Below are positions 14,414 through 31,697 of a DNA stretch of 64,000 nt, in pieces (positions within the stretch are counted from its first letter, which is position 1; each line of letters opens with the position of its first letter). This DNA is from Leekyejoonella antrihumi (lineage in GTDB: Bacteria > Actinomycetota > Actinomycetes > Actinomycetales > Dermatophilaceae). A program made the translations under genes and the position numbers. Location of the stretch: contig NZ_VCQV01000005.1 of NCBI RefSeq assembly GCF_007845645.1, forward strand, positions 124,001-188,000. The letters are read 5' to 3'. Under the pieces are notes generated by a model. It made no database searches and was not told the DNA's origin. It saw only the letters and a list, made by a program, of their open reading frames with translations.

Positions 14414-16513
14414 GTGGAGCCGACGACCACCTCCTGCCCGCGACGCCCGCCGGTATGGCGGGAGCTGCTGCTGGGACTCGGCCTGTTCGCGCTCTACCTG
14501 GTCGTCGACAGCCTCGGTGGTTCGGGACGCACCCACGCCGCGGAGCGCAACGCCCAGTGGATCAGCCGGGTCGAGACCCGGCTGCACCTCGACGTCGAGC
14601 GCTGGCTCAACGGCGCGATCGTGCCGCATCACACCCTGACCGTCGCGGCCAACTACGAGTACGCGACAACCTACGTCATCAGTGCGCTGCTCATGCTGGT
14701 GCTCGCCTACTGGAAGACACCGGCGGTCTATCGACTGGCGCGCAACAGCTTCGTCATCCTCAACCTGCTGGCATTCGGGTGTTTCGTGTCGTTCCCGTTG
14801 ATGCCGCCGCGGATGCTCCGGTCGGGATTCGTCGACACGGTCGCGCAGGATGCCACCGTCGGCTCATGGGGGTCGCCGCTGGTCGCCCATGCCAACCAGC
14901 TCGCGGCGATGCCGTCGCTACACATCGCCTGGGCTCTGTGGGTCAGCGTGATGCTCGCGCGCCTGTCGCACGCTCACTGGCTTCAGCTGGTCAGCGCCAT
15001 CCACGTCGCCGTGACCGTGGTCGTTGTGCTGGCCACGGCAAACCACTACCTCCTCGATGCCGTCGGCGCGGCAGCAGTCGTCGCGGTCGCCGTCCTGGCC
15101 GCCGAGGCGTGGACCGCGGAGCCGGGTCAACTGGCCACCGCGGACGAGTTCTTTCTCAACGTGGAGGACGGGCCCAACGCGCAGAACGTCGGCGGCTACG
15201 TCATTCTCGATCCTGGCGGAGGCACCTGTCCGTCCCGGGACGACATCCGCGATCTCGCGCGCGACAACCTGTCCGCACACCCACGTTTCGTCTCCGCCTT
15301 GGACACGAGCGGTCGGCGCCCTCGCTGGGCCGGGCTCGACACAATGGACTGGGATCTGCACATCACCCAGATCGACCTGCCGCCCGGCAGCGATCAGGAG
15401 GCGCTGGATGGCGTCGTTGCGCACCTCCATGCCCAGCGCCTCCCCAGGGACCGGCCGTTGTGGCGCATCGCGATGATCTACGGGCTTCCCCACGGCCGAG
15501 CGGCCTTCGTGGTGCTGATGCACCACTGCATGGCCGATGGCGTCGGCGGGGTCGACCAAGTGCTCGCCCTGGTCCGGCCGACCGTCGATCCGGGAGCCAC
15601 CCAGCACCGACCACCGGGGCGGCTGCAGTCCGTCCTGGCCATCGCCGCAGGCCTGGGTCAGCTCGCGACGGATGGCAAACCCTCCGTCGTCCTCGATGTG
15701 GGGGCGGGCCGAACCTCACTCGGCACCGTCCAGCTCGAGTTCGATGAGGTGCGTCGGCTGGCGCACGAGCACGAGGTAACCGTCACCCAGCTGCTCCTGG
15801 CCCTCGTGGGATCTGCCGTTGCCGCGGCGAGTCCGCAGCTGACAGAGCGTTGTCGAAACCGTCTACGCGTCTCGGTGCCGGTCCTGCTTCAAGCGCCGGG
15901 CGCGTGCGATGCGGCCAACTCGACTGCTGCCGTCATCATCAACGCACCCGCCCGAGCTGCGAACCCGACCGACCTCCTGCCAGAGGTCACCACCTTCTCG
16001 CGCGCCCTACGCTCGCCTACTCGCGCGCTCGCCTCCCGGTGGGTCATGTCCTCGGCGCTACGCATGGTGCCGGCGGCGGGGCGGCGGGCGTTCGCGCACA
16101 CGGTGTACGGACGCCGCTTCTTCAATGGCATCGTGTCGAACATCCCTGGACCACCCGGCGACATGTTCACCCTCGCGAACGCGACCATGGCAGAGGTCTA
16201 CCCATTGCTTCCGCCCGCGCCAGGCGCACCTGTCACGGTCGGTGCACTGACGTGGGGCCGAAAGCTCGGGATCGGCATCACCACCGATCCGGACGTGCTC
16301 GACGCGCACGACGTCGCCGACGGGTTGCGCACCGGTTTCCGCACTGCACTCGCCCGCACCCCGAGGCCGCAGGACACGCCGGCGGCCCGACCCACGGCGC
16401 CCGGTCAGCCGTCCTCCTCGAACTCTCGAGGCGCGCCCCAGGCAAGGACCAGGAAGAGCTTGGCCCGCTCACGGGGAGAGTCGAGGGCGTCGCCGAACAC
16501 CTCGCGCAGCTGA
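14414..16513 (+). CDS. PAP2-family phosphatase fused to WS/DGAT acyltransferase
   Basis: A 699-residue two-domain protein. Residues 1-230 are a membrane domain with about six helices and the PAP2/inositol-phosphotransferase-like motifs PSLH (167-170) and HYLLD (211-215). From about 235 it is a wax ester synthase/diacylglycerol acyltransferase with the catalytic HHCMADG (370-376), the PLWRI element before it, and SNIPGPP near the C-terminus. The arrangement suggests that phosphatidic acid is dephosphorylated and the diacylglycerol then acylated to triacylglycerol at the membrane by one polypeptide; the architecture is known in actinobacteria, the coupling is inferred. The last 36 codons overlap antisense with pucR and look non-conserved. 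Confidence 0.85.
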   Translation: MEPTTTSCPRRPPVWRELLLGLGLFALYLVVDSLGGSGRTHAAERNAQWISRVETRLHLDVERWLNGAIVPHHTLTVAANYEYATTYVISALLMLVLAYWKTPAVYRLARNSFVILNLLAFGCFVSFPLMPPRMLRSGFVDTVAQDATVGSWGSPLVAHANQLAAMPSLHIAWALWVSVMLARLSHAHWLQLVSAIHVAVTVVVVLATANHYLLDAVGAAAVVAVAVLAAEAWTAEPGQLATADEFFLNVEDGPNAQNVGGYVILDPGGGTCPSRDDIRDLARDNLSAHPRFVSALDTSGRRPRWAGLDTMDWDLHITQIDLPPGSDQEALDGVVAHLHAQRLPRDRPLWRIAMIYGLPHGRAAFVVLMHHCMADGVGGVDQVLALVRPTVDPGATQHRPPGRLQSVLAIAAGLGQLATDGKPSVVLDVGAGRTSLGTVQLEFDEVRRLAHEHEVTVTQLLLALVGSAVAAASPQLTERCRNRLRVSVPVLLQAPGACDAANSTAAVIINAPARAANPTDLLPEVTTFSRALRSPTRALASRWVMSSALRMVPAAGRRAFAHTVYGRRFFNGIVSNIPGPPGDMFTLANATMAEVYPLLPPAPGAPVTVGALTWGRKLGIGITTDPDVLDAHDVADGLRTGFRTALARTPRPQDTPAARPTAPGQPSSSNSRGAPQARTRKSLARSRGESRASPNTSRS

Positions 16514-17667: not shown

Positions 17668-17836
17668 CGCACCTCTTCCTGGCCCGTCGACTCACAGAAA
17701 ACTCTCAGGTATACCGTCCGGTGACCGCGTACCTGCACCAGCACCTCTTGTCTATCACCAAGTGACAACCGATCGCAGTAATTGCCACACCTCTGAGTCG
17801 AGACTCTTGACGCCGCCTTCGAGCACGCTTGGAGGT

Positions 17837-18700
17837 ATGACAGCGACGTCGCCGGCAGCGGAGCTCGAGGGGCCGGCTCTGTACGACCCTCGCGAGCGGA
17901 CTGAGAACTTCCCGGTCGCGATGCGGTTGCTGCCACCCGCGGTTCGCCGGCAACTGCGACAGATCTACGTCGTCGCCCGGCACATCGACGACCTGGGCGA
18001 TGAGGCGCCGGGGGATCGCGGTCGCCTCCTCGCCGAGTTCCGGAAGGACCTGGACACCCTCTTCGACGGTGGCACACCACGCGACCCCTGCCTGCGTCAG
18101 TTCATACCGACCCCCCGCGCAGGTGACCTGCAGAGGGAGGCCCTCCAGCGGCTGGTTGACGCGAACCTGCAGGACCAGCAGGTGCACGAGTACGCCACCT
18201 TCGAGGACCTGCTGGGATACTGCCGACTGTCCGCCGACCCGATCGGTCGCATGGTGCTGGCGGCCTTCGGGCAGTCGACTACGGAGCGGCAGGAGCTCTC
18301 CGATCGGATCTGCAGCGCGCTTCAGGTGCTGGAGCACTGTCAGGACGTGGTGGAGGACTTCCACCAGGGCCGCCTCTACCTGCCGCAGGTCGACCTGTCC
18401 CATGCGGGATGCCCGAGCGCCGACATCCTGAATCCTCGCCAGGCGGGCGCCCTGCGCGCGGTGGTCCTCGTCCAGGTGCGGCGAGCACGACATCTGATGC
18501 AGACGGGGCAACCCCTGATCGGCGAGCTGCACGGGTGGGCCCGGATCGCCGTGGCCGGCTACCTGGCCGGCGGCATGGCAACGGCAGACGCCCTGGAGCA
18601 CGCCCGCGGTGACGTGACGCGGTCTACGCCGCGACCCCGACGGGTCGACCTACTGCGACACGTACTGGTGCTCCTGATGACCCGGCGGGGCTCCGCATGA
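17837..18700 (+). CDS. hpnC: Squalene synthase HpnC
   Basis: A 287-residue trans-isoprenyl diphosphate synthase of the squalene/phytoene synthase family. The two aspartate-rich motifs are RHIDDLGDE (about 45) and QDVVEDFHQGRLYLP (about 175). As first gene of the hopanoid operon and neighbour of hpnD and hpnE it is HpnC, which converts presqualene diphosphate to hydroxysqualene in the three-enzyme HpnCDE route from farnesyl diphosphate. The ATG at 17837 follows GGAGG by only one base, an abnormal spacing, and an in-frame GTG lies at 17762; the start is therefore less sure than the gene. It overlaps hpnD by ATGA. Confidence 0.93.
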   Translation: MTATSPAAELEGPALYDPRERTENFPVAMRLLPPAVRRQLRQIYVVARHIDDLGDEAPGDRGRLLAEFRKDLDTLFDGGTPRDPCLRQFIPTPRAGDLQREALQRLVDANLQDQQVHEYATFEDLLGYCRLSADPIGRMVLAAFGQSTTERQELSDRICSALQVLEHCQDVVEDFHQGRLYLPQVDLSHAGCPSADILNPRQAGALRAVVLVQVRRARHLMQTGQPLIGELHGWARIAVAGYLAGGMATADALEHARGDVTRSTPRPRRVDLLRHVLVLLMTRRGSA

Positions 18701-19560
18701 GCACCACGACGACCGAGCAGGCCTACCTGACGTGCGAGAGCATCACGCGCAGCGAGGCGAAGAACTTCTATTACGGCATCCGCCTGCTGCCCTCGACCAA
18801 ACGTGCGGCCCTCTGCTCCCTGTATGCGCTGGCCCGTCGCATCGACGACATCGGTGACTGTGACGCACCGGTCGCCCAGCGTGCCGATCGGCTGGCCTCC
18901 CTGCGCAAGTCCCTCGCCGACATCGACAACGCGACCGAACCGGTGCTTGCGGCGGTTGCTCAGACGGCGCGCGACTTCCCCGTCCCCCTCGATGCGTTCT
19001 ACGAGCTCGTCGACGGGGTCGAGATGGATCTCGCGGGAGTTCGATACGACGACTTTCACGACCTCACGATCTACTGCCGGCGGGTGGCCGGGTCCGTCGG
19101 CCGTCTGTGCCTTGCCATCTTCGGCACCGGGTCCGACCCGCGCGCACCGCGCTTCGCCGACCAGCTGGGAATAGCACTGCAGCAGACAAACATCCTGCGC
19201 GACATCCGCGAGGACCTGCTCGTGGGTCGTGTGTACCTGCCGGCCCGTGAGCTCGAGCAGTTCGGCGTCACCCTCGAGCTGGACGAGCGCGGCTCCCTCA
19301 GCGATCCGGAGGCACACCTCGCCGGCTACATCGACTTCGCCGCGGCCCGCGCGGAACAGTGGTACGACCTCGGAATGCGGCTGCTACCGGAGCTGGACGG
19401 CCGCAGCGCCGCCTGCTGCGCCGCCATGGCCGGCATCTACCATCATCTGCTGCAACGCATTCGGCAGCACCCCACCTCGGTCTACGACCACCGTGTCTCG
19501 CTGCCGACCTGGGAAAAGGGGCGCGTCGCCGTGGCCGCGCTGAGCAGGACCGTGATCTGA
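18697..19560 (+). CDS. hpnD: Presqualene diphosphate synthase HpnD
   Basis: A 287-residue homologue of hpnC with motifs RRIDDIGD (about 48) and ILRDIREDLLVGRVYLP (about 168), the latter the typical HpnD signature. It condenses two farnesyl diphosphates to presqualene diphosphate. It overlaps hpnC (ATGA) and is followed one base later by hpnE, so all three are translated as a set. The FYYGIRLLP segment in the N-terminus is characteristic of the family. Confidence 0.95.
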   Translation: MSTTTTEQAYLTCESITRSEAKNFYYGIRLLPSTKRAALCSLYALARRIDDIGDCDAPVAQRADRLASLRKSLADIDNATEPVLAAVAQTARDFPVPLDAFYELVDGVEMDLAGVRYDDFHDLTIYCRRVAGSVGRLCLAIFGTGSDPRAPRFADQLGIALQQTNILRDIREDLLVGRVYLPARELEQFGVTLELDERGSLSDPEAHLAGYIDFAAARAEQWYDLGMRLLPELDGRSAACCAAMAGIYHHLLQRIRQHPTSVYDHRVSLPTWEKGRVAVAALSRTVI

Positions 19561-19561
19561 C

Positions 19562-20908
19562 ATGGCAACCGTCGGTGTGATCGGAGGGGGGCTCGCCGGT
19601 ATCACCGCTGCGCTCGACCTCGCCGACGCGGGCCACCACGTCATACTGCTTGAATCCCGGTCACGGCTCGGCGGACTCACCAACTCCTTCCAGCGAGAGG
19701 GTCTCTGGGTCGACAACGGCCAGCATGTGTTCCTTCGCTGCTGCACCAGCTATCGGCAGCTCCTCGAGCGGCTCGGCGTGGAGCATCAGGTCCAGCTGCA
19801 ACCACAGCTGACGATCACGATGCGCAGCGGTTCGAGTGGCCGGGGCACCCGCATTCACCGCACGTCGCTGCCGTCTCCCCTCCATCTAGGGGGAGCACTC
19901 CTCGCACACCGATGGATCCCCTTACGCGAACGGCTTCAGGCGGCACGCGTCGCCCTTGCCCTCGGCAGGGTAGACCGCGACGCCTCGGAGACCGATGACG
20001 TCAGCTTCGGCGACTGGTTGCGGCAGCAGGGTTGCAGCCCGCGCGCAGTCGAGACCCTTTGGGATCTCGTCGGCCTCGCAACGTTGAACGCCCATGCCGA
20101 TCAGGCCTCGCTGGCCCTCGCTGCGACGGTGTTCCAGCTCGGGCTGCTCGGCGACAAGGGTGGCGCCGACATCGGCTGGGCCACCGTGCCACTTCAGCAG
20201 CTGCACGGCGCTGCTGCCCTACGGGCCCTCGACGTAGCCGGGGCCGAGGTGTGCACGCGTTCCCGTGTGCGGGCAGTGACCCGCACCACGAGTGGGTGGC
20301 GCGTCGACCTGGATGACACCCACCGCACCTTCGATCGCCTCGTTGTGGCTGTCCCGCCGGACATTGCCGACGGGCTCGTCGGGTCCGCAGCGCTGCGAGT
20401 GCCGGCCGACTTCGTCAACCGACTCGGCCGCTCGCCCATCGTCAACCTCCATGTGGTCATCGACCGGCAGGTCATGAGTGAACCGTTCCTCGCCGCGGTC
20501 GACAGTCCGCTGCAGTGGCTCTTCGACCGGACCACATCCTCGGGACTCCCCTGCGGGCAGTATCTCGTGGCCAGCCTGTCCGCGGCGGACGACCTGATCG
20601 GCTGCACCGTCGCCGAGCTGCGGACGACGCTCCTGCCCGAGTTCGTGCGCATACTCCCCCGTATGACGGATGCCACGGTCCAGGACTTCTTCGTCACCCG
20701 GGAGCCACACGCGACGTTCCGGCCCGCCCCAGGAACCGCACTGTCCCGGCCCGCAGCCCGAACTGCTTTGCCCGGCCTCGCAGTCGCCGGCGCGTGGACC
20801 GCGACGGGCTGGCCGGCAACGATGGAGGGTGCTGTGCGCAGCGGCCATGCGGCGGCGAGCGCACTGCAGGAACACACGCCGGCGCGACGAGACGAGGTGG
20901 CAGCATGA
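19562..20908 (+). CDS. hpnE: Hydroxysqualene dehydroxylase HpnE (FAD-dependent)
   Basis: A 448-residue amine-oxidase/desaturase-fold flavoprotein. The dinucleotide site VGVIGGGLAGITAALDLA lies at residues 4-21, followed by LLESRSRLGGLTNSF, and the C-terminal FAD segment is PGLAVAGAWTATGWPATMEGAVRSG. HpnE reduces hydroxysqualene to squalene, the last step before cyclisation. It overlaps the polyprenyl synthase gene by ATGA. Confidence 0.94.
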   Translation: MATVGVIGGGLAGITAALDLADAGHHVILLESRSRLGGLTNSFQREGLWVDNGQHVFLRCCTSYRQLLERLGVEHQVQLQPQLTITMRSGSSGRGTRIHRTSLPSPLHLGGALLAHRWIPLRERLQAARVALALGRVDRDASETDDVSFGDWLRQQGCSPRAVETLWDLVGLATLNAHADQASLALAATVFQLGLLGDKGGADIGWATVPLQQLHGAAALRALDVAGAEVCTRSRVRAVTRTTSGWRVDLDDTHRTFDRLVVAVPPDIADGLVGSAALRVPADFVNRLGRSPIVNLHVVIDRQVMSEPFLAAVDSPLQWLFDRTTSSGLPCGQYLVASLSAADDLIGCTVAELRTTLLPEFVRILPRMTDATVQDFFVTREPHATFRPAPGTALSRPAARTALPGLAVAGAWTATGWPATMEGAVRSGHAAASALQEHTPARRDEVAA

Positions 20909-21915
20909 ACGGACCGGACCGGGCGCTCGACGAGACCAGATCTCTGGTCGTACCGGCACTACGGAAGGCCGTCGACCGGCTGGACCCCCAGTTGCGGAAG
21001 GTCGTCGCGTATCACCTGGGATGGGTCGACGAGCATGGTGATCCGACCGTCGAGGACGGCGGCAAGGCGGTCCGACCGACGCTGGCGCTCGCCGGAGCGC
21101 GAGCCGTCGGGGCAGATCCGTCGGCCGTTGTGGCCGGGGCGGTCGCGGTCGAGCTCGTGCACAACTTCTCTCTCGTGCACGACGACATCATGGACCGAGA
21201 TGTGACCCGGAGGCACCGCCCCACGGTCTGGTCGATCTGGGGTGAGCCCACGGCGATCCTCGCCGGGGACGCGATGGCCTCTCTGGCACGCGAGGTCGTG
21301 CTGGAGGACACCGGCACCGGTGCCCCCCGGGCCGCCCTGATGTTGGAACGCGCGACCCGCACCCTCATCCATGGGCAGGTCCAGGACATGGAGTTCGAGG
21401 AACGCGGCACCGTTCCGCTGGCCGAGTGCGAAGCCATGTCGACACGCAAGACGTCGTCGCTCCTCGCGGCCAGCACCGTCATCGGCGCGCTGCTCGCCGA
21501 TGCCGACCGGGATCTGGTCCGGCCCCTGTGGTCCTATGGCATTCATGTCGGCCTGGCCTTCCAGCTGATCGATGACGTGCTCGGCATCTGGGGCGATCCC
21601 AAGGTCACCGGCAAGTCCAACCACTCGGATCTGCGCGCCAAGAAGAAGTCGCTTCCGATGACCTGGGCGCTCGAGCAGGGCAGCGCCGACGCCGATCGGC
21701 TGCGGGCCTGGTTGACGACCGGTGGCACAACCGAGAGCGAGATCGCCTCCGCGGTCGATGCACTCGATCGTCTGCGCGCGAAGGACTGGGCGGAGCATCG
21801 CGCCGCCGATCTGGTCGATGCAGCCAAGAACGACCTGGACGGCACCGCGCTCGTCCGCGATGCCGTCGACGAGCTGTGCGAGCTGGCCGACTTCATCTGC
21901 GCCAGGAAGGCCTGA
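20905..21915 (+). CDS. Polyprenyl diphosphate synthase (farnesyl/geranylgeranyl type)
   Basis: A 336-residue all-trans prenyl synthase. The first aspartate-rich motif is HDDIMD (about 92-97), the second is LIDDVLGIWGD (about 222). GGKAVRPTLAL is the usual substrate-binding loop. In this operon the likely product is farnesyl diphosphate for HpnC/D, although chain length cannot be fixed by eye; the residues before the first motif (LVHNFSLVHDD) are the short-chain type. The start ATG overlaps the hpnE stop and the gene ends 3 bp before shc. Confidence 0.92.
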   Translation: MNGPDRALDETRSLVVPALRKAVDRLDPQLRKVVAYHLGWVDEHGDPTVEDGGKAVRPTLALAGARAVGADPSAVVAGAVAVELVHNFSLVHDDIMDRDVTRRHRPTVWSIWGEPTAILAGDAMASLAREVVLEDTGTGAPRAALMLERATRTLIHGQVQDMEFEERGTVPLAECEAMSTRKTSSLLAASTVIGALLADADRDLVRPLWSYGIHVGLAFQLIDDVLGIWGDPKVTGKSNHSDLRAKKKSLPMTWALEQGSADADRLRAWLTTGGTTESEIASAVDALDRLRAKDWAEHRAADLVDAAKNDLDGTALVRDAVDELCELADFICARKA

Positions 21916-21918
21916 AAC

Positions 21919-23853
21919 ATGACAGATACCGCAACCGACACCTCGACGCACGCCTCTTCGGGCAGCGCCGCTCAGCACACGCTGAACGCCGCCCTCACCT
22001 ACCTTCGGTCTCTCCAGGACGAGGGCGGCTGGTGGAAGGGCGATCTCGAGACCAATGTGACGATGGATGCCGAGGACATGATGCTGCGGGAGTTCTTGCA
22101 CATCGCAACGGCAGAGACACGAGAGCAGAGCGCTCGCTGGATCCGGTCCCAGCAGCGAGACGACGGGACGTGGGCGACGTTCGCCGGCGGTCCCGGTGAC
22201 CTGTCGACGACGACCGAGGCGTGGGTCGCTCTGCGAATCGCCGGCGACAAGCCGGCCGCGGAGCACATGCGCCGCGCGGCGGACTTCGTCCAGCAGCAGG
22301 GCGGCGTCGAGCGATCACGAGTCTTCACCAGGATCTGGCTGGCGCTCTTCGGGCTCTGGGACTGGGACGACCTGCCCAACATGCCTCCCGAGCTGATGCT
22401 GCTGCCGAAGTGGTTCCCGCTCAACATCTACAACTGGGGATGCTGGGCACGCCAGACCATCGTCCCGTTGACCGTGGTCTGCACCCTGCGACCGCGACGA
22501 CCGCTCCCCTTCAAGATCGACGAGCTCCGCACTGGCGCAGCGGGGCCGGCCAAGCAGTCCTGGCGCAGCATCGGTGGCGCATTCCAGCGACTCGACGTCG
22601 CACTGCACGCCTACGCCAAGCATCCGCTGATGCCCGTGCGGCAGGGCGCCATGCGCCTGGCCGCCGAGTGGATCCTGGCACGGCAGGAGGCAGATGGCGG
22701 CTGGGGCGGGATCCAGCCGCCCTGGGTCTACTCCCTGCTCGCACTGCATCTCCTCGGATATCCACTCGACCATCCGGCGATGAAGGCCGGCGTCGAGGGG
22801 CTCGACGGCTTTGTGCTCACCAAGGAGACACCTGACGGCCCGATGCGTCAGCTGGAGGCCTGCCAGTCCCCCGTGTGGGACACCGCCCTGGCACTGAATG
22901 CCATGCTGGACTCCGGTGTGGACGCGGACGACCCGGCCATCCGCAAGGCGAGCGAGTGGCTCGTGGACGAGCAGATCACCGTCGACGGCGACTGGAGTGG
23001 GCGCACCCCGCACCTGCCGTCCGGAGGTTGGGCGTTCGAGTTCGCCAACGACAACTATCCAGACACCGACGACAGCGCCATCATTGTCATGGCGCTGCGC
23101 CGGGTCGGGAGCAACCGGCCGACACTGCTGCGAAAGGCCGTAGACCGCGGCATCGCCTGGACCGCCGGCATGCAGTCGCGGGACGGCGGCTGGGGCGCCT
23201 TCGACGCCAACAACACACACACCCTGGCCAATGAGCTGCCCTTCTGCGACTTCGGCGCCGTGATCGACCCACCATCGGCCGATGTCACCGCACACGTCGT
23301 GGAAATGCTCGCTGCAGAGGGCCGGGCCCGTGGTGAACGCTGCAAGCGCGGAGTGCGCTGGCTGCTCGAGCACCAGGAGGACGACGGCTCCTGGTTCGGA
23401 CGGTGGGGCGCAAACCACGTCTACGGCACCGGAGCGGTGGTGCCCGCCCTCATCGCCGCCGGAATACCCACCGATCACCAGGCCATCCGCGCGGCGGTGC
23501 GCTGGCTGGAGGCGCATCAGAACACCGACGGCGGCTGGGGCGAGGATCTGCGCTCCTACGATGCTCCCGCCTGGATAGGCCGTGGTGAATCGACCCCGTC
23601 CCAGACCGGCTGGGCGCTCATGGCGCTGGTGGCGGCCGGCGAGGGCTCTGCTGCACGTGCGGGGGAACTCACCGAAACCGCCGTTGAGCGTGGGATCGCC
23701 CATCTCGCGAACACCCAGCGAGAGGACGGCGGCTGGGACGAGCACCTGTTCACCGGCACCGGATTCCCCGGTGACTTCTACATCAGCTACCACCTCTACC
23801 GGCTGGTGTTCCCCATCTGGGCGCTCGGCCGCTACCTGCAAGGGGGCACGTGA
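21919..23853 (+). CDS. shc: Squalene-hopene cyclase
   Basis: A 644-residue class II triterpene cyclase. The protonating motif DTDD is at 382-385 inside NYPDTDDSAI, and several QW repeats (QEADGGWGGIQP, QSRDGGWGAFD, QNTDGGWGE, QREDGGWDE) are seen along the protein. The C-terminal GTGFPGDFYISYHLYRLVFP is family-typical. It cyclises squalene to hopene/hopanol at the inner membrane face. The stop overlaps the next gene (GTGATG), so it is coupled to the phosphorylase-IspH fusion. Confidence 0.97.
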   Translation: MTDTATDTSTHASSGSAAQHTLNAALTYLRSLQDEGGWWKGDLETNVTMDAEDMMLREFLHIATAETREQSARWIRSQQRDDGTWATFAGGPGDLSTTTEAWVALRIAGDKPAAEHMRRAADFVQQQGGVERSRVFTRIWLALFGLWDWDDLPNMPPELMLLPKWFPLNIYNWGCWARQTIVPLTVVCTLRPRRPLPFKIDELRTGAAGPAKQSWRSIGGAFQRLDVALHAYAKHPLMPVRQGAMRLAAEWILARQEADGGWGGIQPPWVYSLLALHLLGYPLDHPAMKAGVEGLDGFVLTKETPDGPMRQLEACQSPVWDTALALNAMLDSGVDADDPAIRKASEWLVDEQITVDGDWSGRTPHLPSGGWAFEFANDNYPDTDDSAIIVMALRRVGSNRPTLLRKAVDRGIAWTAGMQSRDGGWGAFDANNTHTLANELPFCDFGAVIDPPSADVTAHVVEMLAAEGRARGERCKRGVRWLLEHQEDDGSWFGRWGANHVYGTGAVVPALIAAGIPTDHQAIRAAVRWLEAHQNTDGGWGEDLRSYDAPAWIGRGESTPSQTGWALMALVAAGEGSAARAGELTETAVERGIAHLANTQREDGGWDEHLFTGTGFPGDFYISYHLYRLVFPIWALGRYLQGGT

Positions 23854-25316
23854 TGAGTGGAGCCATCTATACGCCGCTGCGGATCGAGCAACAAGCGCTG
23901 GCGCACCGACTCTCGGTGCCGGTGAACCTCGCCGGTCGGGGCCGGTCGACCCATGTCCTCGGCGGCCGCCCGACGCTGCTCGCCGGCGTCGCCGGCGGTC
24001 TGGCACCCGGCGTGCGGCCGGGCGACGTGGTGGTTGCCGACCGCGTGCGGCTGGGCGACACGGAGACGCTCTGCCCCGCCGCGCCCATGCTCGCCCGCGC
24101 CCTACGAGCCGCCGGCCTGACCGTCCATGTCGGCGCGATCGAGACCACGCCACGCGTCGTCGACGGCTCAGACCGGCTGGAGCTCGCGAGATCGGGCGCG
24201 CTCGCGGTGGACACGGAGTCCGGCTATGTCGCCACCCAGGTGCCGGACGGGCAGCTGGCAGTGGTCCGCACGATTGTCGACACCGCCGACAACCCGCTGC
24301 GCCGCGCCGGCACGCTGAGACGCGGGATACGCGCCCTGCACACGCTGTCCGCCACAGCGCCGACACTCGAGCAGTGGGCCGAGGCCGTCCTGGCCCGTGA
24401 CGTCTGCCTGGCCAGCCCTCGCTCGTTCTGCGCAGGCGTCGAACGGGCCATCGAGATCGTGGAGCGCGCCTTGCAGATGAATGGTGCACCCGTCTACGTG
24501 CGACGGCAGATCGTGCACAACACCCATGTCGTGTCACGCCTGGAACGGCTGGGTGCGGTGTTCGTCGAGGAGCTCGACGAGGTGCCCCGAGGATCCGTCG
24601 CAGTGCTCGCGGCGCACGGCGTGGCACCTTCGGTGCGCCGGCAGGCGAGTGAGCGCGAGCTTCAGGTCATCGATGCCACCTGCCCCCTGGTCGCGAAGGT
24701 GCACCACGAGGTGCAGCGGTATGCCTCGCGTGGCAACACGATCTTCCTCATCGGTCACGCGGAGCACGAGGAGGTCGTCGGCACACGTGGTGAGGCACCG
24801 GATCATGTTGTGGTCGTGGACAACCCGGAAGAGGCCGCGTTGGTCGAGGCACCCGACCCGGAGCACGTGTCCTACGTCATGCAGACGACCCTTGCGGTGT
24901 CCGAGGCCGAACGGTCCGCGGCGGTCCTGCGCGCCAGGTATCCGCTGCTGTCCGGCCCACGCCACGAGGACATCTGCTACGCCACGAGCAACCGACAGCA
25001 GGCGGTCGCCGAGGTCGCCGCTCAGTGCGATCTCGTGCTCGTCGTCGGGTCGGGCAACTCGTCCAACTCGCGCCGACTGGTCGAGGTGGCGCAAGCGGCC
25101 GGAGCCACGGCACATCTGGTCGACGACGTCGGCGCCGTCGATCTCGCGTGGCTGGCGCGGACCCGCAGAGTCGGTGTCACCGCCGGCGCATCCGCTCCGG
25201 CACACCTCGTCGAGGAGCTGTTGCAGTCGCTCTCCGCCTTGGGCGACCTGACCGTCGCCGAATCACCCGTCACCCAAGAGGATGTGCGGTTCTCACTTCC
25301 ACGGGAGGTCAGCTGA
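23853..25316 (+). CDS. ispH: Fusion: HpnG-type hopanoid phosphorylase + IspH (HMBPP reductase)
   Basis: A 487-residue protein joining two enzymes. Residues 1 to about 180 form a nucleoside-phosphorylase-like domain (PTLLAGVAGG, VDTESGYVA, VVRTIVDTADNPL), as in HpnG, which removes adenine from adenosylhopane. Residues about 183-487 are a complete IspH/LytB with the three iron-sulfur cysteines C193 (SFCAGVERAI), C277 (DATCPLV) and C375 (DICYATSNR) plus HEEVVGTRGE, giving IPP and DMAPP from HMBPP. ATG 23853 lies 6 bp after AGGGGG and overlaps the shc stop. In other actinobacteria these are separate genes of the same locus; no stop or frame change separates them here. See findings. Confidence 0.9.
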   Translation: MSGAIYTPLRIEQQALAHRLSVPVNLAGRGRSTHVLGGRPTLLAGVAGGLAPGVRPGDVVVADRVRLGDTETLCPAAPMLARALRAAGLTVHVGAIETTPRVVDGSDRLELARSGALAVDTESGYVATQVPDGQLAVVRTIVDTADNPLRRAGTLRRGIRALHTLSATAPTLEQWAEAVLARDVCLASPRSFCAGVERAIEIVERALQMNGAPVYVRRQIVHNTHVVSRLERLGAVFVEELDEVPRGSVAVLAAHGVAPSVRRQASERELQVIDATCPLVAKVHHEVQRYASRGNTIFLIGHAEHEEVVGTRGEAPDHVVVVDNPEEAALVEAPDPEHVSYVMQTTLAVSEAERSAAVLRARYPLLSGPRHEDICYATSNRQQAVAEVAAQCDLVLVVGSGNSSNSRRLVEVAQAAGATAHLVDDVGAVDLAWLARTRRVGVTAGASAPAHLVEELLQSLSALGDLTVAESPVTQEDVRFSLPREVS

Positions 25317-25317
25317 A

Positions 25318-26319
25318 ATGGCTATGCCACTGCGTCAAACACTCCGACTGGGTCGCTACCTGGCCAAGCAGAAGCTGCTGCGGAGGGACAAGTTCCCGCT
25401 CATTGTCGAGCTCGAGCCCCTCTTTGCCTGCAACCTGCACTGCGCCGGGTGCGGCAAGGTCGAGGAGCCGGCGGCCATGCTCAGGCAGCGGATGCCGGTC
25501 GAGCAGGCCATCGCTGCCATCGAGGAGTGTGGCGCACCGATGGTCTCGCTCGCCGGTGGTGAACCCCTGATGCACCCGCAGATCGACGAGATCGTGCGTC
25601 AGCTGCTCGACCGGGACAAGATCGTCTTCTTGTGCACGAATGCCCTGCTGATGCCACGGCACATCGACAAGTTCACGCCGCACCCGAACTTCTCGTGGAT
25701 GATCCACCTCGATGGGATGAAGCAGAGGCACGATGAGTCGGTCTGTCACGAGGGAGGATTCGAGGGCGCGGTCGAGGCGATCAAGCTCGTCAAGGAGCGT
25801 GGATTCCGTGTCATGACCAACACCACGGTCTTCAACAGCGACTCACCGCAGGACGTCATCGATGTGCTGAACTACCTCAACGACGACCTGCACGTGGACA
25901 ACATGCAGATCGCCCCGGGCTACGCCTACTGGAAGGCACCGGACCAGAACGGGTTCCTCGGCGTCGAAGAGACGCGCGCGCTCTTCAAGGAGGCCTTCGC
26001 CGACGGTCGGCGCAAGAAGTGGCGGCTCAACCACTCGCCGCTCTTCCTCGACTTCCTCGAAGGCAAGGTCGACTTCGAGTGCACCCCGTGGGCGATCCCG
26101 TCCTACTCCCTGAAGGGCTGGCAGCGTCCGTGCTACCTGCTCGACGACGGCTACGTCTCCACGTACCGGGAGCTGATCGAGGACACCGACTGGGATGCCT
26201 TCGGCCGCGGCAAGGACCCGCGCTGCGCCAACTGCATGGCCCACTGCGGCTACGAGCCCACCGCCGTCGTCGCCACGACGGGATCGCTCCGGGAGACGAT
26301 CCGAGCGGCGGTGGCCTGA
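25318..26319 (+). CDS. hpnH: Adenosyl-hopene transferase HpnH (radical SAM)
   Basis: A 333-residue radical SAM enzyme. The cluster cysteines are in FACNLHCAGCGK (C38, C42, C45), here with CX3CX2C spacing, and SLAGGEPLMHPQI follows as the SAM-binding segment. A second cysteine group, CANCMAHCGYEPTA, lies at the C-terminus as in HpnH. It adds the 5'-deoxyadenosyl group to hopene (diploptene), giving adenosylhopane, the substrate of HpnG. The ATG at 25318 is preceded by GGGAGG; the frame's earlier start at 25282 lies inside ispH. The stop overlaps the dxs start (TGATG). Confidence 0.95.
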   Translation: MAMPLRQTLRLGRYLAKQKLLRRDKFPLIVELEPLFACNLHCAGCGKVEEPAAMLRQRMPVEQAIAAIEECGAPMVSLAGGEPLMHPQIDEIVRQLLDRDKIVFLCTNALLMPRHIDKFTPHPNFSWMIHLDGMKQRHDESVCHEGGFEGAVEAIKLVKERGFRVMTNTTVFNSDSPQDVIDVLNYLNDDLHVDNMQIAPGYAYWKAPDQNGFLGVEETRALFKEAFADGRRKKWRLNHSPLFLDFLEGKVDFECTPWAIPSYSLKGWQRPCYLLDDGYVSTYRELIEDTDWDAFGRGKDPRCANCMAHCGYEPTAVVATTGSLRETIRAAVA

Positions 26320-28109
26320 TGACCGCCGACATGGCCCTGCTTCCCAGGATCAACGGCCCGGACGACGTGAAGGCTCTCGCGCAGTCCCAGCTTCCGCTGC
26401 TGGCCAAGGAGATTCGTGCCGAGCTGATCGACAAGGTCTGCGCGACCGGTGGTCATCTGGGGCCGAACCTCGGCGTAGTCGAGCTCTCGATCGCGCTGCA
26501 CCGGGCGTTCGACTCTCCCCGGGACTCCATCATCTGGGACACCGGGCACCAGGCCTACGTGCACAAGATGCTCACCGGCCGGCACGACTGTCTCGGCTCC
26601 TTGCGCACTGCGGGTGGCCTGTCCGGGTATCCGTCCCGGCGTGAGAGCAACCACGACATCGTCGAGAACTCTCACGCCTCAACCTCCTTGGCGTATGCCG
26701 ATGGGCTTGCCAAGGCCTACCAGCTGGCCGGGCAGCGACGTCGGGTCGTTGCGGTCATCGGCGATGGCGCTCTCACCGGGGGCATGGCGTGGGAGGCGAT
26801 GAACAATCTCGGCGCCTGCGACCGAGATGTCATCATCGTGCTGAACGACAACGGCCGGTCCTACGAACCAACGGTGGGGGCGCTGCCCAAGCATCTGTCG
26901 CAGCTGCGGGATGGGACGGCGACGTCAAACCTCTTCGAGGTGCTCGGATTCAGCTATCTCGGCCCGACGGACGGGCATGATCTGAAGGGGCTTCAGCGGG
27001 CTCTGACGAGGGCACGCCGATGCAAGGGCCCCTGCGTGCTGCACGTCGTCACCCGGAAGGGTGCTGGATATCGTGCCGCCGAGGCCGATGTCGACGACCG
27101 CATGCACACGGTGAGCGCCCGGCCCGTCCGTCCGGCGTCGGGACGTCCGAAGTGGACCCACATCTTCGGCAGTGAGCTCGTCGCGATCGGCGAGGATCGA
27201 GCCGATGTGGTCGCCGTCACCGCGGCGATGCGCCGGCCGACCGGCCTGCTGCCGTTCTCCGAGCGATTCCCGCACCGTGCCTACGACGTCGGCATCGCCG
27301 AGCAGCACGCCGTTGCCTCCGCGGCGGGTCTGGCGGCCGCCGGCCTGCACCCGGTGGTGGCGATCTACTCGACGTTCATGAATCGCGCCTTCGATCAGGT
27401 CCTCATGGATGTCGGGCTCCATTCTGCTCCAGTCACGTTCGTGCTCGACCGGTCTGGGGTCACCGGGCCGGACGGGCCGTCGCACCACGGCATCTGGGAT
27501 ATCTCCCTCTTCAGTCTGGTGCCCGGTATGCGGGTGGCGGCTCCACGCGACGCGGTCCGGCTACGGGATCTGCTTCGGGAGGCCATCGGCTACGACGCGG
27601 GGCCGACCGCGATCCGCTTCCCCACGGGAGAGTGCCCGGCACCGGTGGGAGCACGGGCGCGCATCGGCACGGTCGACGTGCTGACACCACGACCCACCCG
27701 GGCCGACCTCCTGCTGGTCGCCACCGGCGCCATGGCAGCGCCCGCCGTCGCGGCGGCGAACCTGATGCGCGCCCACGGGGTCTCGGTGACCGTCGTGGAT
27801 CCTCGCTGGGTCTTCCCCATCTCACCCGAGCTGCTCAATATCGTGGCAGATCACCGCGTCGCCGTCACGGTGGAGGACAACGCCCTACCGGGTGGCTTCG
27901 GCGAGACACTCAGTCACAGCGCGCAACGGGCCGGGATCACGACCCGGGTCGTGCCGCTCGGCCTGGAGCCGGGATACATTGCGGCCGGCTCACGCGAGGA
28001 CATCCTGGCTGCCGCCGGGCTGGACCCGCGAGGGATCGCGGAGACCGTTCAGGCGGTGCACTGGCCATCACCGTCGCTGGTGGGCAGTCTGCGCTCACTA
28101 CCTGGCTAG
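26319..28109 (+). CDS. dxs: 1-deoxy-D-xylulose-5-phosphate synthase
   Basis: A 596-residue thiamine-diphosphate enzyme condensing pyruvate and glyceraldehyde 3-phosphate, the entry step of the MEP isoprenoid pathway. Motifs: GGHLGPNLGVVELSIALH, WDTGHQAYVHKMLTGR, the cofactor site GDGALTGGMAWEAMNNLG, and the transketolase central region DVGIAEQHAVASAAGLA. It is a little shorter than typical housekeeping Dxs (about 620-640) and sits at the end of the hopanoid operon, so it may be a dedicated second copy raising isoprenoid flux; that needs the rest of the genome to decide. Confidence 0.94.
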   Translation: MTADMALLPRINGPDDVKALAQSQLPLLAKEIRAELIDKVCATGGHLGPNLGVVELSIALHRAFDSPRDSIIWDTGHQAYVHKMLTGRHDCLGSLRTAGGLSGYPSRRESNHDIVENSHASTSLAYADGLAKAYQLAGQRRRVVAVIGDGALTGGMAWEAMNNLGACDRDVIIVLNDNGRSYEPTVGALPKHLSQLRDGTATSNLFEVLGFSYLGPTDGHDLKGLQRALTRARRCKGPCVLHVVTRKGAGYRAAEADVDDRMHTVSARPVRPASGRPKWTHIFGSELVAIGEDRADVVAVTAAMRRPTGLLPFSERFPHRAYDVGIAEQHAVASAAGLAAAGLHPVVAIYSTFMNRAFDQVLMDVGLHSAPVTFVLDRSGVTGPDGPSHHGIWDISLFSLVPGMRVAAPRDAVRLRDLLREAIGYDAGPTAIRFPTGECPAPVGARARIGTVDVLTPRPTRADLLLVATGAMAAPAVAAANLMRAHGVSVTVVDPRWVFPISPELLNIVADHRVAVTVEDNALPGGFGETLSHSAQRAGITTRVVPLGLEPGYIAAGSREDILAAAGLDPRGIAETVQAVHWPSPSLVGSLRSLPG

Positions 28110-28782: not shown

Positions 28783-29237
28783 TGCCGCGCCCGCCGCCGC
28801 ATCTCGACCGGCTCACCCTGAAACTTCTCCAGCACCGCCTTCGTGTCCGGGTCGATCCGCTGCGGTCGCTGGGTCTCCATGTCGAAGTGGACCACGGTGG
28901 TCTGCGCCGTGCAGCAGACGTGCGCGTCCTGGTCGTTCGACGACAACACCTCGTAGTCCAGGTCGAACGACGCGCCCGAGATCTTGCTGACCCACATGGT
29001 GATGGTCACGGGCTGATGTCGGTAGTGCAGCTGACGGCGGTAGTCGATCTCGGTGCGAGCGATCAGCAGCCGCGGGACCCGCGACCCCTCGGCGTCGAAC
29101 CCGAACCACTCCGCGAGGCCGAGCACACGAGCCTCCTCCAGCAACCGTGCCACCTGCACGTTGTTGATGTGCCGCAGCGCATCCATGTCCGACCAGCGCA
29201 ACGGGATGTCGACAGAGTACGGTCGCTCGTTCTGCAT
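28779..29237 (-). CDS. Acyl-CoA thioesterase, 4HBT hotdog family
   Basis: A 152-residue hotdog-fold protein. The opening RWSDMDALRHINNVQVARLLEEAR is the 4-hydroxybenzoyl-CoA thioesterase type signature with the catalytic Asp, followed by IDYRRQLHYRHQPVTITMWV. It hydrolyses an acyl-CoA of unknown chain. The ATG at 29237 has GAGGA just upstream; the open frame further upstream is antisense to the divergent tesB gene. The stop overlaps the next gene. Confidence 0.88.
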   Translation of the reverse strand: MQNERPYSVDIPLRWSDMDALRHINNVQVARLLEEARVLGLAEWFGFDAEGSRVPRLLIARTEIDYRRQLHYRHQPVTITMWVSKISGASFDLDYEVLSSNDQDAHVCCTAQTTVVHFDMETQRPQRIDPDTKAVLEKFQGEPVEMRRRARQ

Positions 29238-29286
29238 GGGCACATCCTCGCAAGTCTTCGTGAACGGACTCGATAGAGTCTGCCAG

Positions 29287-30255
29287 GTGAGCGATGACAA
29301 CAGCACTGACCCGACCGCCGACGCCCTGGACAACCCGGTCCGTGACCTGCTGGACGTGCTCGACCTGCAGCCGGCCGGGCGTGCCCAGGTCAGCCCCGAG
29401 GTCACGGGCGACGCGACGGATGCGGACGTCTCGGAGCGCAACCTGGACGTGTTCGTCGGTCGGAGCCAGGTGACCCCGCACGGCAGGGTCTTCGGTGGTC
29501 AGGTGCTGGCCCAGTCCGTCATGGCGGGGGGACGGACCGTGCGATCCGTGGAGGGCCTGGGTGAGCGTCCGATCCATTCCCTGCACGCCTACTTCATTCG
29601 CCCCGGCGACTCCAGCCATCCCATCCGGTTCGCCGTCGAGAACCTGCGCGACGGCAGGTCGTTCTCCGTCCGGCGCGTCCACGCGATGCAGTACGGCCAC
29701 ACGATCTTGTCTGCCACGCTGTCCTTCCAGACTCCTGCCGACGGGCTCGACCACCAGGCGGCCATGAACTCCGTGCCCGACCCCGACCGGGTGCGCACGG
29801 CCGCCGAGGAGCTCGCCGGGGTCGACCACCCGGCGGTGCGGCACTGGCTGCGTCGGGCGATGGATGTGCGGACCGTCGAGGGTGCGCTGTACCTCGTGCC
29901 CGGACGCCAGCACTCGGCTCATCAGAACGTCTGGATGAAGGCGATCGAACAGCTCCCCGACGACCCGCTGTTGCACGCCGCCGTACTCGCCTACAGCTCG
30001 GACTACTCGCTCCTGGAGTCGATCCTGCGTCGCCACGGGCTCGTGTGGGGCGACCGCAGGCTGCGTCCGGCGAGCCTGGATCACGCGATGTGGTTTCACC
30101 GGCCGGGGCGCATCGACGACTGGGTGCTCTACGAGCAGGAGTCGCCGTCCGCGTCGGGCGGTCGCGGACTCGGGCTCGGCAAGATCTTCTCGATCGACGG
30201 CACCCTGATCTGCTCGGTCGCACAGGAGGGAATGGTCCGCGTCAAGCAGGACTAG
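29287..30255 (+). CDS. tesB: Acyl-CoA thioesterase II, TesB family
   Basis: A 322-residue double-hotdog thioesterase. It contains GRVFGGQVLAQSVMAGGRTV (first hotdog), SLHAYFIRPGDSSHPIRF, and in the second half YSSDYSLLESILRRHG and SLDHAMWFHRPGRIDDWVLY with the Asp of the catalytic triad. It is 30-40 residues longer than E. coli TesB through an acidic N-terminal extension. The GTG at 29287 lies 7 bases after TAGAGT (29274-29279), suggesting a leaderless mRNA; no ribosome site is seen. Its stop overlaps that of the mocR-type gene on the other strand by four bases (CTAG). Confidence 0.92.
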   Translation: MSDDNSTDPTADALDNPVRDLLDVLDLQPAGRAQVSPEVTGDATDADVSERNLDVFVGRSQVTPHGRVFGGQVLAQSVMAGGRTVRSVEGLGERPIHSLHAYFIRPGDSSHPIRFAVENLRDGRSFSVRRVHAMQYGHTILSATLSFQTPADGLDHQAAMNSVPDPDRVRTAAEELAGVDHPAVRHWLRRAMDVRTVEGALYLVPGRQHSAHQNVWMKAIEQLPDDPLLHAAVLAYSSDYSLLESILRRHGLVWGDRRLRPASLDHAMWFHRPGRIDDWVLYEQESPSASGGRGLGLGKIFSIDGTLICSVAQEGMVRVKQD

Positions 30256-31697
30256 GACCATCCGAGCTGCTCCAGCACGCAGGCTATCTCGTCCACGACC
30301 GGCCGCGCCGCCGTCTCAGGCAACTGCGCATAGCCGAGCAGGAGGCCGTTGACCGGATGCGCCACGGCATACGACGACAGGGCGGAGACCACCAGTCCCC
30401 GTTCGGCGCAGCGGTCGACGACATCGGTGTCTCTGGCCCCGCAGCCCCAACGAATGGCCACATGGATGCCGGTGGCCACGCCGAGCACCTCGATGTCCGG
30501 ACACCGCTCGGACAGAGCGGTCACCAGGCGGGTCCGCCTCGCAGAGTAGGTGCGCTGCGCGCGGGTGAGATGCCGGGTCAGGCTGCCGTCCTCCATCATT
30601 CGCGACATCGCCCGGGAGGCGACCCGGCTGCCATCCGTGCGCCGACGCGCGCCGGAGACCCGCACCGCATCGGACATCCAGCTCGGGACCACTGCCCAGG
30701 CGATCCGCAGGTCGGGTGTCAGGATCTTGGACGCCGTGCCGAGATAGACGACCCGCTGGGCGCCGCCCTTCATCGCCCGCAACGGTCCGAGCGGCCCGGC
30801 CTCGTGCCGAAACTCCCCGTCGAAGTCGTCTTCGATGATCACCGCGTCGGCGTCGTGCGACCACTCGAGCAGTCGTTGGCGGCGGCCGGCCGGCATGCGA
30901 CCGCCAAGGGGGTACTGGTGAGCAGGAGTCACATACGCGAGGTCGTGCTCCGCCGTCAGCTGATCCACGCGGAGCCCATCTTCATCCACTGCGAGCAGAT
31001 CAAGGTGTGCTGCGCTCTCCTGCAATGGAATCCGTGCCATCGGATAGCCCGGGTCCTCCATCGCAGCCCGTCTGACACCGAGCGCGTCTGCGACGGCGGA
31101 GATGGCCGCGGACACCCCGGGGAAGATCACCACATCCTCCGCGGCGGCCGTGATCCCGCGGGCCCGGCGGAGGTAGGTGACGAGCGCAGCCTGGAGCTCG
31201 GGGTGGTGCAACGGCCGATACCAGTCCACCTCCGGCACCGTGGCAGACGCCGCCCGCCAGGCCCGTCGCCAGTCCCGCCGGTCGATCAGCGAGACGTCCG
31301 GAGCGCCCGGCGCCAGGTTGAATCGAACCCGCTCGGGGCCGGGACGGTCGTCGCGGAAATGCCTTGGTGCCAGCCGCGGCCGACCGGCCGCGATCCGCGA
31401 ATCGTCTGGCACGACCTCGGCGTCATCCACCGCCACCACTGCGCCGGATCCGCCACGGGTCTCGACGAGCCCCGCAGCGATGAGTTCGTCATACGCCATC
31501 ACGACGCGTGATCGCGCAACACCGAGATCGGCGGCGAGCGTGCGGGTGGACGGCAAGGCGTCTCCCCTGCCGAGGCGCCCGGGTCCGATCTGCGCGGCGA
31601 TGGCGGCGGACAGACCGGCCACGCTGCGCGCCTCACTCTTGTCGAGGCACAGGTTGCTGATGCGGCGAGAGCGAGGCACCGGTCCACCGTAACCCAT
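30252..31697 (-). CDS. MocR-type regulator (GntR helix-turn-helix + aminotransferase-like domain)
   Basis: A 481-residue MocR/PdxR/GabR-family regulator. The winged helix (DALPSTRTLAADLGVARSRVVMAYDELIAAGLVETRGGSGAVV) spans about 46-88; the rest is a fold-type I PLP domain with IIEDDFDGEFRHE (PLP-pyridine Asp) and the Schiff-base Lys in YLGTASKILTPDLRIAW. Such proteins sense PLP, GABA or related amines and act on divergent genes. Here the divergent gene is a GNAT acetyltransferase 66 bp away, with repeated GGACC elements between. Ligand unknown. Confidence 0.9.
   Translation of the reverse strand: MGYGGPVPRSRRISNLCLDKSEARSVAGLSAAIAAQIGPGRLGRGDALPSTRTLAADLGVARSRVVMAYDELIAAGLVETRGGSGAVVAVDDAEVVPDDSRIAAGRPRLAPRHFRDDRPGPERVRFNLAPGAPDVSLIDRRDWRRAWRAASATVPEVDWYRPLHHPELQAALVTYLRRARGITAAAEDVVIFPGVSAAISAVADALGVRRAAMEDPGYPMARIPLQESAAHLDLLAVDEDGLRVDQLTAEHDLAYVTPAHQYPLGGRMPAGRRQRLLEWSHDADAVIIEDDFDGEFRHEAGPLGPLRAMKGGAQRVVYLGTASKILTPDLRIAWAVVPSWMSDAVRVSGARRRTDGSRVASRAMSRMMEDGSLTRHLTRAQRTYSARRTRLVTALSERCPDIEVLGVATGIHVAIRWGCGARDTDVVDRCAERGLVVSALSSYAVAHPVNGLLLGYAQLPETAARPVVDEIACVLEQLGWS

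Follow-up and report, generated by a model that had tools for sequence, protein, structure and literature searches.

An HpnG-like–IspH fusion gene in a hopanoid operon of Leekyejoonella antrihumi and its recurrence across actinobacteria

Proteins that join IspH to a second domain have been described before, and the closest of them to the subject of this article is 'UDP-IspH', a UDP/PNP (purine nucleoside) phosphorylase domain paired with IspH in Frankia sp. QA3, EUN1f, and EAN1pec and presented as possibly a random event (PMC4746011). The same source describes IspH-RPS1 and IspH-UbiA—likewise IspH joined to a second domain—and suggests that UbiA brings IspH to the membrane and supplies prenyl precursors locally. 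Gene fusion within a hopanoid locus is also known, in the HpnCD fusion of subdivision 2 Acidobacteria (PMC5462960). Here we examine a gene in a 64,000-nucleotide stretch of DNA from Leekyejoonella antrihumi (contig NZ_VCQV01000005.1, positions 124,001 to 188,000; hereafter the window), which lies in a hopanoid operon and whose product carries an HpnG-like domain followed directly by a complete IspH. Judged by its domains, this protein has the PMC4746011 architecture, PNP/UDP phosphorylase and IspH in one chain. We think it probable that the product is a bifunctional hopanoid-operon enzyme, in which HpnG would be joined to a dedicated second IspH that gives the operon its own reductase for 4-hydroxy-3-methylbut-2-enyl diphosphate (HMBPP).

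The fused gene and its two halves

The hpnG-ispH fusion gene occupies positions 23853-25316 of the + strand as one stop-free open frame of 487 residues, just as an earlier note on this DNA had read it. The ATG shares bases with the stop codon of shc (TGATG at 23851-23855), the gene's own stop is 25314-25316, and the likely hpnH ATG stands at 25318, one base past that stop and preceded by GGGAGGT. The note was right on the operon context and the open frame. The product is laid out as an HpnG-like nucleosidase/phosphorylase fold in residues 1-179 (23853-24389, +), running directly into IspH in residues 182-487 (24396-25313, +). The join is real and recurs across many actinobacteria: since independent genomes carry both halves in the same uninterrupted frame, an assembly or joining error is ruled out, and with it the concern that resequencing might reveal a stop or frameshift near codon 180.

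Pfam finds a domain above its cut-off in each half. For the C-terminal half, LYTB (PF02401) scores 303 bits against a cut-off of 24.5 over residues 184-460, and the NCBIfam IspH model TIGR00216 gives 301.8 bits against 187.85; the protein falls short of narrower IspH models in NCBIfam (for example, NF002189 with 407.3 against 444 and NF002190 with 385.8 against 389). Solved IspH chains match the fusion at 6.6e-86, and residues 182-480 of the predicted model superpose on E. coli IspH 3f7t with Z 37.1 and 1.9 Å over 299 residues (VIA-align). The cluster cysteines C193, C277, and C375 are where the note had placed them and are invariant in a 33-row alignment. Moreover, E. coli positions C12, H41, H74, C96, H124, E126, T167, C197, S225, N227, and S269—which we take to be cluster and HMBPP-contact residues—are identical in 56/56 distinct fused sequences (drawn from 64 fused hits in loci up to L141 whose frames cover over 200 model positions, which leaves out L044 as short and L065 as broken; the IspH tree below uses the same loci and frames). 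Because these eleven positions are conserved throughout, ordinary HMBPP reduction is likelier than a new reaction.

The N-terminal half passes the PNP_UDP_1 (PF01048) cut-off narrowly, with 25.4 bits against 25.1 over residues 43-128. VIA-align places residues 1-177 of the model on the E. coli methylthioadenosine/S-adenosylhomocysteine (MTA/SAH) nucleosidase, MTAN, with Z 21.4 and 2.2 Å over 175 residues, so that this half is a compact MTAN/PNP fold; hhalign to MTAN gives a probability of 97 across model columns 24-157. Residues E122, R139, and D143 align with E. coli MTAN E174, R193, and D197 in both hhalign and MAFFT, and E12 aligns with E12 in MAFFT only, its position lying outside the hhalign range. 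The first three are invariant in the 33-row alignment and E12 is at least 90% conserved; we take E. coli MTAN E12, E174, R193, and D197 to be the catalytic set. Among the solved relatives of this half nucleosidases outrank phosphorylases, and 'phosphorylase' is hence no more than a label for it. Its place in the locus is that of a hopanoid gene, with shc upstream and hpnH immediately downstream, and a search of a plasmid collection gave no match to it. On sequence grounds the half is best named HpnG-like.

Both folds are complete in the AlphaFold2 model, which was built from an alignment of 33 fused proteins and has a mean predicted local distance difference test score (pLDDT) of 90.0 and a predicted template modelling score (pTM) of 0.85, residues 477-487 falling below 50. 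According to DSSP, helix 169-178 runs directly into strand 182-188 at the junction (24354-24401, +). Ten residues separate the two domain models in 66/67 distinct fused sequences and 12 in the remaining one, and the junction sequence varies apart from W175, which is invariant. As a control, we compared how often rows share the commonest length (32 rows, a truncated one having been set aside from the 33): the mean fraction is 0.977 in the junction, 0.995 in the IspH core, and 0.844 in the HpnG half, the junction thus being almost as constant as the core and more so than the HpnG half. Solitary HpnGs extend 9 to 25 residues beyond the equivalent model end, and three of them further (30, 38, and 91). 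A separate internal start for IspH is ruled out in the window gene, where V184 is GTC and the interval between W175 and C193 holds no in-frame ATG, GTG, or TTG; a number of relatives have GTG at the corresponding codon, and for this reason such a start is possible in them.

The fused IspH is not the cell's sole IspH. Another ispH lies elsewhere in the same genome (at C96), and each of the 32 fused genomes among 37 searched for IspH has exactly one further copy (in two pieces in G604 and partial in G682), so that the fused copy is a second one in 33/33 genomes checked. The five solitary-HpnG genomes in the same search comprise four with one IspH and one with two.

Distribution, gene order, and history

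The earlier note had held that other actinobacteria keep the two genes separate within the same locus; a survey of actinobacterial genomes does not bear this out, and it shows that the fusion is not a one-off. We classed 96 HpnG-bearing genomes, and 53 of them, from 11 family codes, carry the fusion. A separate ispH beside hpnG appears in none of the 96 (the stretch examined reaches about 1.5 kb on each side in 10 of the 43 solitary-HpnG genomes), which leaves the claim of separate genes unsupported. The survey used a class sample of 394 genomes and a phylum sample of 396; in the former, 103 matched at E <= 0.001 and 11 weak matches (E 6e-5 or worse) were dropped, giving 92, to which four from outside the class were added. 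Two genomes were counted as fused though imperfect: G361, whose frame breaks inside IspH, and G181, whose HpnG is partial and abuts a contig end. The profile used to search the class sample and a set of named genomes was made from the HpnG halves of fusions and may favour fused forms, and hpnH is thus the fairer anchor. It marks 92/394 genomes, of which 48 are fused, and the hpnH and HpnG genome sets match except for G306 (hpnH only) and G181 (HpnG only).

At the level of loci, 52 of 53 (L033-L085, that of the window included) carry HpnG and IspH on a single stretch free of stops; in G361 the frame breaks within IspH, and contig ends truncate some others. The remaining locus has a solitary HpnG. 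The fusion is present in every one of the 23 named loci, which come from Flexivirga (3), Segeticoccus, Nocardia (8), Amycolatopsis (6), Nocardioides, Asanoa, and metagenome-assembled genomes (MAGs) of Pseudonocardia, Frankiales, and one further actinobacterium. The family code f36, probably Frankiaceae, holds 32 fused genomes of the class sample. In the family of L. antrihumi itself, matches spanning both halves occur in 10/186 genomes (5/53 genera) at E <= 1e-120, three of them beginning inside the HpnG half (at residues 27, 34, and 111); this patchy pattern fits transfer or loss. A genome of the same order in the relatives sample (G051) has HpnG without IspH. Two loci stand apart in their reading frames: the break in the IspH part of L065 (G361) reflects either assembly error or decay, and in L159 (G069) the HpnG match contains one in-frame TGA and stands alone, with no IspH nearby.

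The gene order in the window is hpnC-hpnD-hpnE-ids-shc-[hpnG-ispH]-hpnH-dxs, all on the + strand. Upstream of the fusion are hpnC (17762-18700; TIGR03464 248.5 bits, slightly below the cut-off of 250.45), hpnD (18697-19560; TIGR03465 283.1 bits, cut-off 278.6), hpnE (19562-20908; TIGR03467 387.2 bits, cut-off 283.05), a polyprenyl diphosphate synthase gene (20515-21915; PF00348 194.4 bits, with homology from about 20920 and the frame extending further upstream), and shc for squalene-hopene cyclase (21919-23853; TIGR01507 736.4 bits). Downstream are hpnH for adenosylhopene transferase (25318-26319; TIGR03470 494.2 bits, in an open frame from 25282) and dxs (26019-28109; TIGR00204 550.6 bits, with homology from about 26325, its frame starting inside hpnH). 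This dxs is the second copy in the genome, the other lying at G000:C118; from 26325 to 28109 it lacks a segment of about 34 residues that corresponds to positions 197-230 of TIGR00204. Beyond the operon, a wax ester/diacylglycerol acyltransferase-like frame lies upstream of hpnC (14414-16513; TIGR02946 168.6 bits, below the cut-off of 309.95) and an acyl-CoA thioesterase gene (PF02551) downstream of dxs (29053-30255, +), of which the open frame at 28813-30261 (-) is a shadow. Searches for promoter-like and terminator-like sites gave counts in line with chance (0 observed for 0.6 expected and 3 observed for 2.2 expected, respectively).

The series from hpnC through hpnH, fusion included, is complete in 17/23 named loci and cut by contig ends in four more, and the same order is found in other classes (L133-L135). 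A downstream dxs is present in 13/23 (scored with a query trimmed of the part inside hpnH). In all eight Nocardia loci (L037, L040, L041, L046-L049, and L052) both dxs and ispG follow hpnH, so that dxs, ispG, and the fused ispH share one hopanoid locus, and one Streptomyces-like locus reads hpnG-hpnH-ispG-dxs without ispH. Given how dxs and ispG recur across these loci, extra genes of the methylerythritol phosphate (MEP) pathway are a recurrent part of the operon, in which ispH occurs, across this sample, only as the fusion. Two or more hpnH matches, some partial (as in G183) and often off the fusion's contig, are found in 25/34 hpnH-bearing f36 genomes.

Trees were built for both halves. In the IspH tree (113 rows), all 56 fused sequences fall on one side of a branch with a Shimodaira–Hasegawa-like approximate likelihood ratio test (SH-aLRT) value of 98; the tree was built by a quick method with SH-aLRT as its only support measure and one distant outgroup, and its root is not fixed. 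In the HpnG tree, 18 solitary sequences are mixed among 74 fused ones (92 rows, after 26 Streptomyces-like rows were thinned from 118), and a single fused clade is rejected by the approximately unbiased (AU) test with p 0.005; deep support is weak, solitary branches are long, and the starred branches alone force only two changes. The nesting of solitary HpnGs among fused ones suggests, most simply, that the fusion formed once and that its IspH part was then lost several times, a direction of change that we infer.

The role of the fusion and its alternatives

In the reading that we prefer, the N-terminal half would be an actinobacterial HpnG that frees adenine from adenosylhopane, which is made by HpnH (encoded just downstream). 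Its C-terminal partner would be a dedicated second IspH converting HMBPP to isopentenyl diphosphate (IPP) and dimethylallyl diphosphate (DMAPP), which would feed the squalene that the same operon converts to hopene. Together, the operon dxs and the fused IspH would amount to copies of the first and last MEP pathway enzymes, made alongside those of the side chain. Fusion would set a 1:1 ratio and tether IspH to HpnG; a benefit at the membrane or to flux, as suggested in the note, may also follow. The fusion would have arisen once, by leading the last HpnG helix into the first IspH strand, and would have spread with the operon, the IspH half being lost several times.

Several observations weigh against this reading. 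The curated HpnG model TIGR03468 (NCBIfam) gives the N-terminal half 51.7 bits, far under its cut-off of 187.1, although the first 180 residues do have the nucleosidase/phosphorylase fold that the note expected. The same model gives 50.4 to 92.2 bits to four other actinobacterial HpnG frames or fusions, two of them solitary, 77.1 bits being the score of a solitary HpnG from a Streptomyces-like locus; as solitary proteins too score below it, the cut-off misses the actinobacterial form of HpnG. In the IspH half, 6 of 31 positions inspected vary among fused sequences, and S226, Ser in the window protein, is Ala in 18/56; this residue may also touch the substrate. The constant junction length may come partly from descent, the IspH core being equally constant. 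Gene order is not uniform either: none of the operon genes was found upstream of the fusion in L054; L055 reads hpnC-hpnD-hpnE-fusion, and searches there for ids, shc, and hpnH came up empty; several f36 genomes have their hpnH at a distance of kilobases from the fusion; and 8/23 named loci have hpnH but neither dxs nor ispG that could be found. To these must be added the 43 of 96 genomes with HpnG alone, without ispH in the stretch examined (36 of them in one Streptomyces-like family), and the constant presence of another IspH, because of which the fused copy could be dispensable or altered.

The last two points also serve a neutral explanation, in which the fusion is an accident of operon structure that persists for want of selection to remove it, the halves work independently, and IspH is a spare copy. 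Loss of the IspH half is evidently tolerated, as solitary HpnGs nest among fused ones and one fused clade is rejected. An idle spare, however, sits poorly with a fusion found in 11 family codes with all eleven catalytic and substrate positions intact, and with a junction that keeps its length while its sequence varies. Moreover, the simplest neutral outcome, a split into two adjacent genes, was seen in 0/96 genomes. We regard neutrality as unlikely on this balance.

Far less probable is that the IspH half has been repurposed as a 4Fe-4S reductase whose substrate is what HpnG makes. IspH chemistry is a reductive dehydroxylation, which does not match the sugar-aldehyde reduction that such a role demands, and the cluster and HMBPP-contact positions are unchanged in every fused sequence. 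What speaks for the idea is that the second copy, present in all 33 genomes checked, is tied in these loci only to HpnG, which is thought to make ribosylhopane; that the fused IspHs form one separate clade; and that S226 is replaced in part of them. The enzyme that turns ribosylhopane into bacteriohopanetetrol is described as not yet established (PMC12583986), and the IspH half could be that enzyme or one of several; yet Streptomyces is reported to make C35 hopanoids (PMC10301674), and the Streptomyces-like genomes here are without the fusion. A main role in sensing oxygen or iron, by which the IspH half would gate HpnG through its 4Fe-4S cluster, is hardly credible despite the direct junction of constant length and the speculation in PMC4746011 about such a role for IspH-RPS1, as the substrate-binding residues are conserved as well as the cysteines and the allosteric link is argued by analogy.

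Taken as a bifunctional enzyme, the fusion would link precursor supply (IspH, often dxs, and sometimes ispG) to the side-chain step, and this 'operon-dedicated MEP capacity' can be tested by gene removal. It also carries a warning for annotation: actinobacterial HpnG can hide inside proteins recognised as IspH, below the cut-off of the HpnG model.

Comparison with known systems

Our search of the open-access literature found no paper that ties an HpnG-IspH fusion to hopanoids: 'hopan' is absent from the main text of PMC4746011, and hpnG, phosphorylase, and hopanoid are absent from the available text of the gromomycin paper (PMC12105684). Two side observations concern E. coli. In strain K-12, ispH is followed directly by rihC, a ribonucleoside hydrolase gene (L121 278-1228 and 1294-1601), and the title of PDB entry 9ql0 has E. 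coli IspH crystallized in the presence of adenosine hemisulfate. Here again IspH would be associated with the cleavage or binding of a nucleoside, perhaps by coincidence; a literature search on the E. coli pairing found nothing.

The window protein resembles the HpnG of TIGR03468 in fold, in its place between shc and hpnH, and in its MTAN-type catalytic residues; it differs in score (51.7 against 187.1 bits) and in having IspH attached. In IspH-UbiA the partner is C-terminal to IspH, whereas here a hopanoid side-chain enzyme precedes IspH at the N-terminus. HpnCD combines neighbouring enzymes of the squalene pathway, whereas the window fusion joins distant steps. For subdivision 1 Acidobacteria, one passage of PMC5462960 puts ispH with shc and hpnH and another puts ispA there; going by the former, hopanoid loci with an ispH of their own, unfused, are possible beyond the actinobacteria.

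The nearest relative, by domain description, is the Frankia UDP-IspH, with the same two domain families and the phosphorylase named first. The architecture itself is therefore already in print; new here are its breadth, synteny, duplicate status, and apparent single origin. What was published as a possible random event recurs in the hopanoid operons of many actinobacteria.

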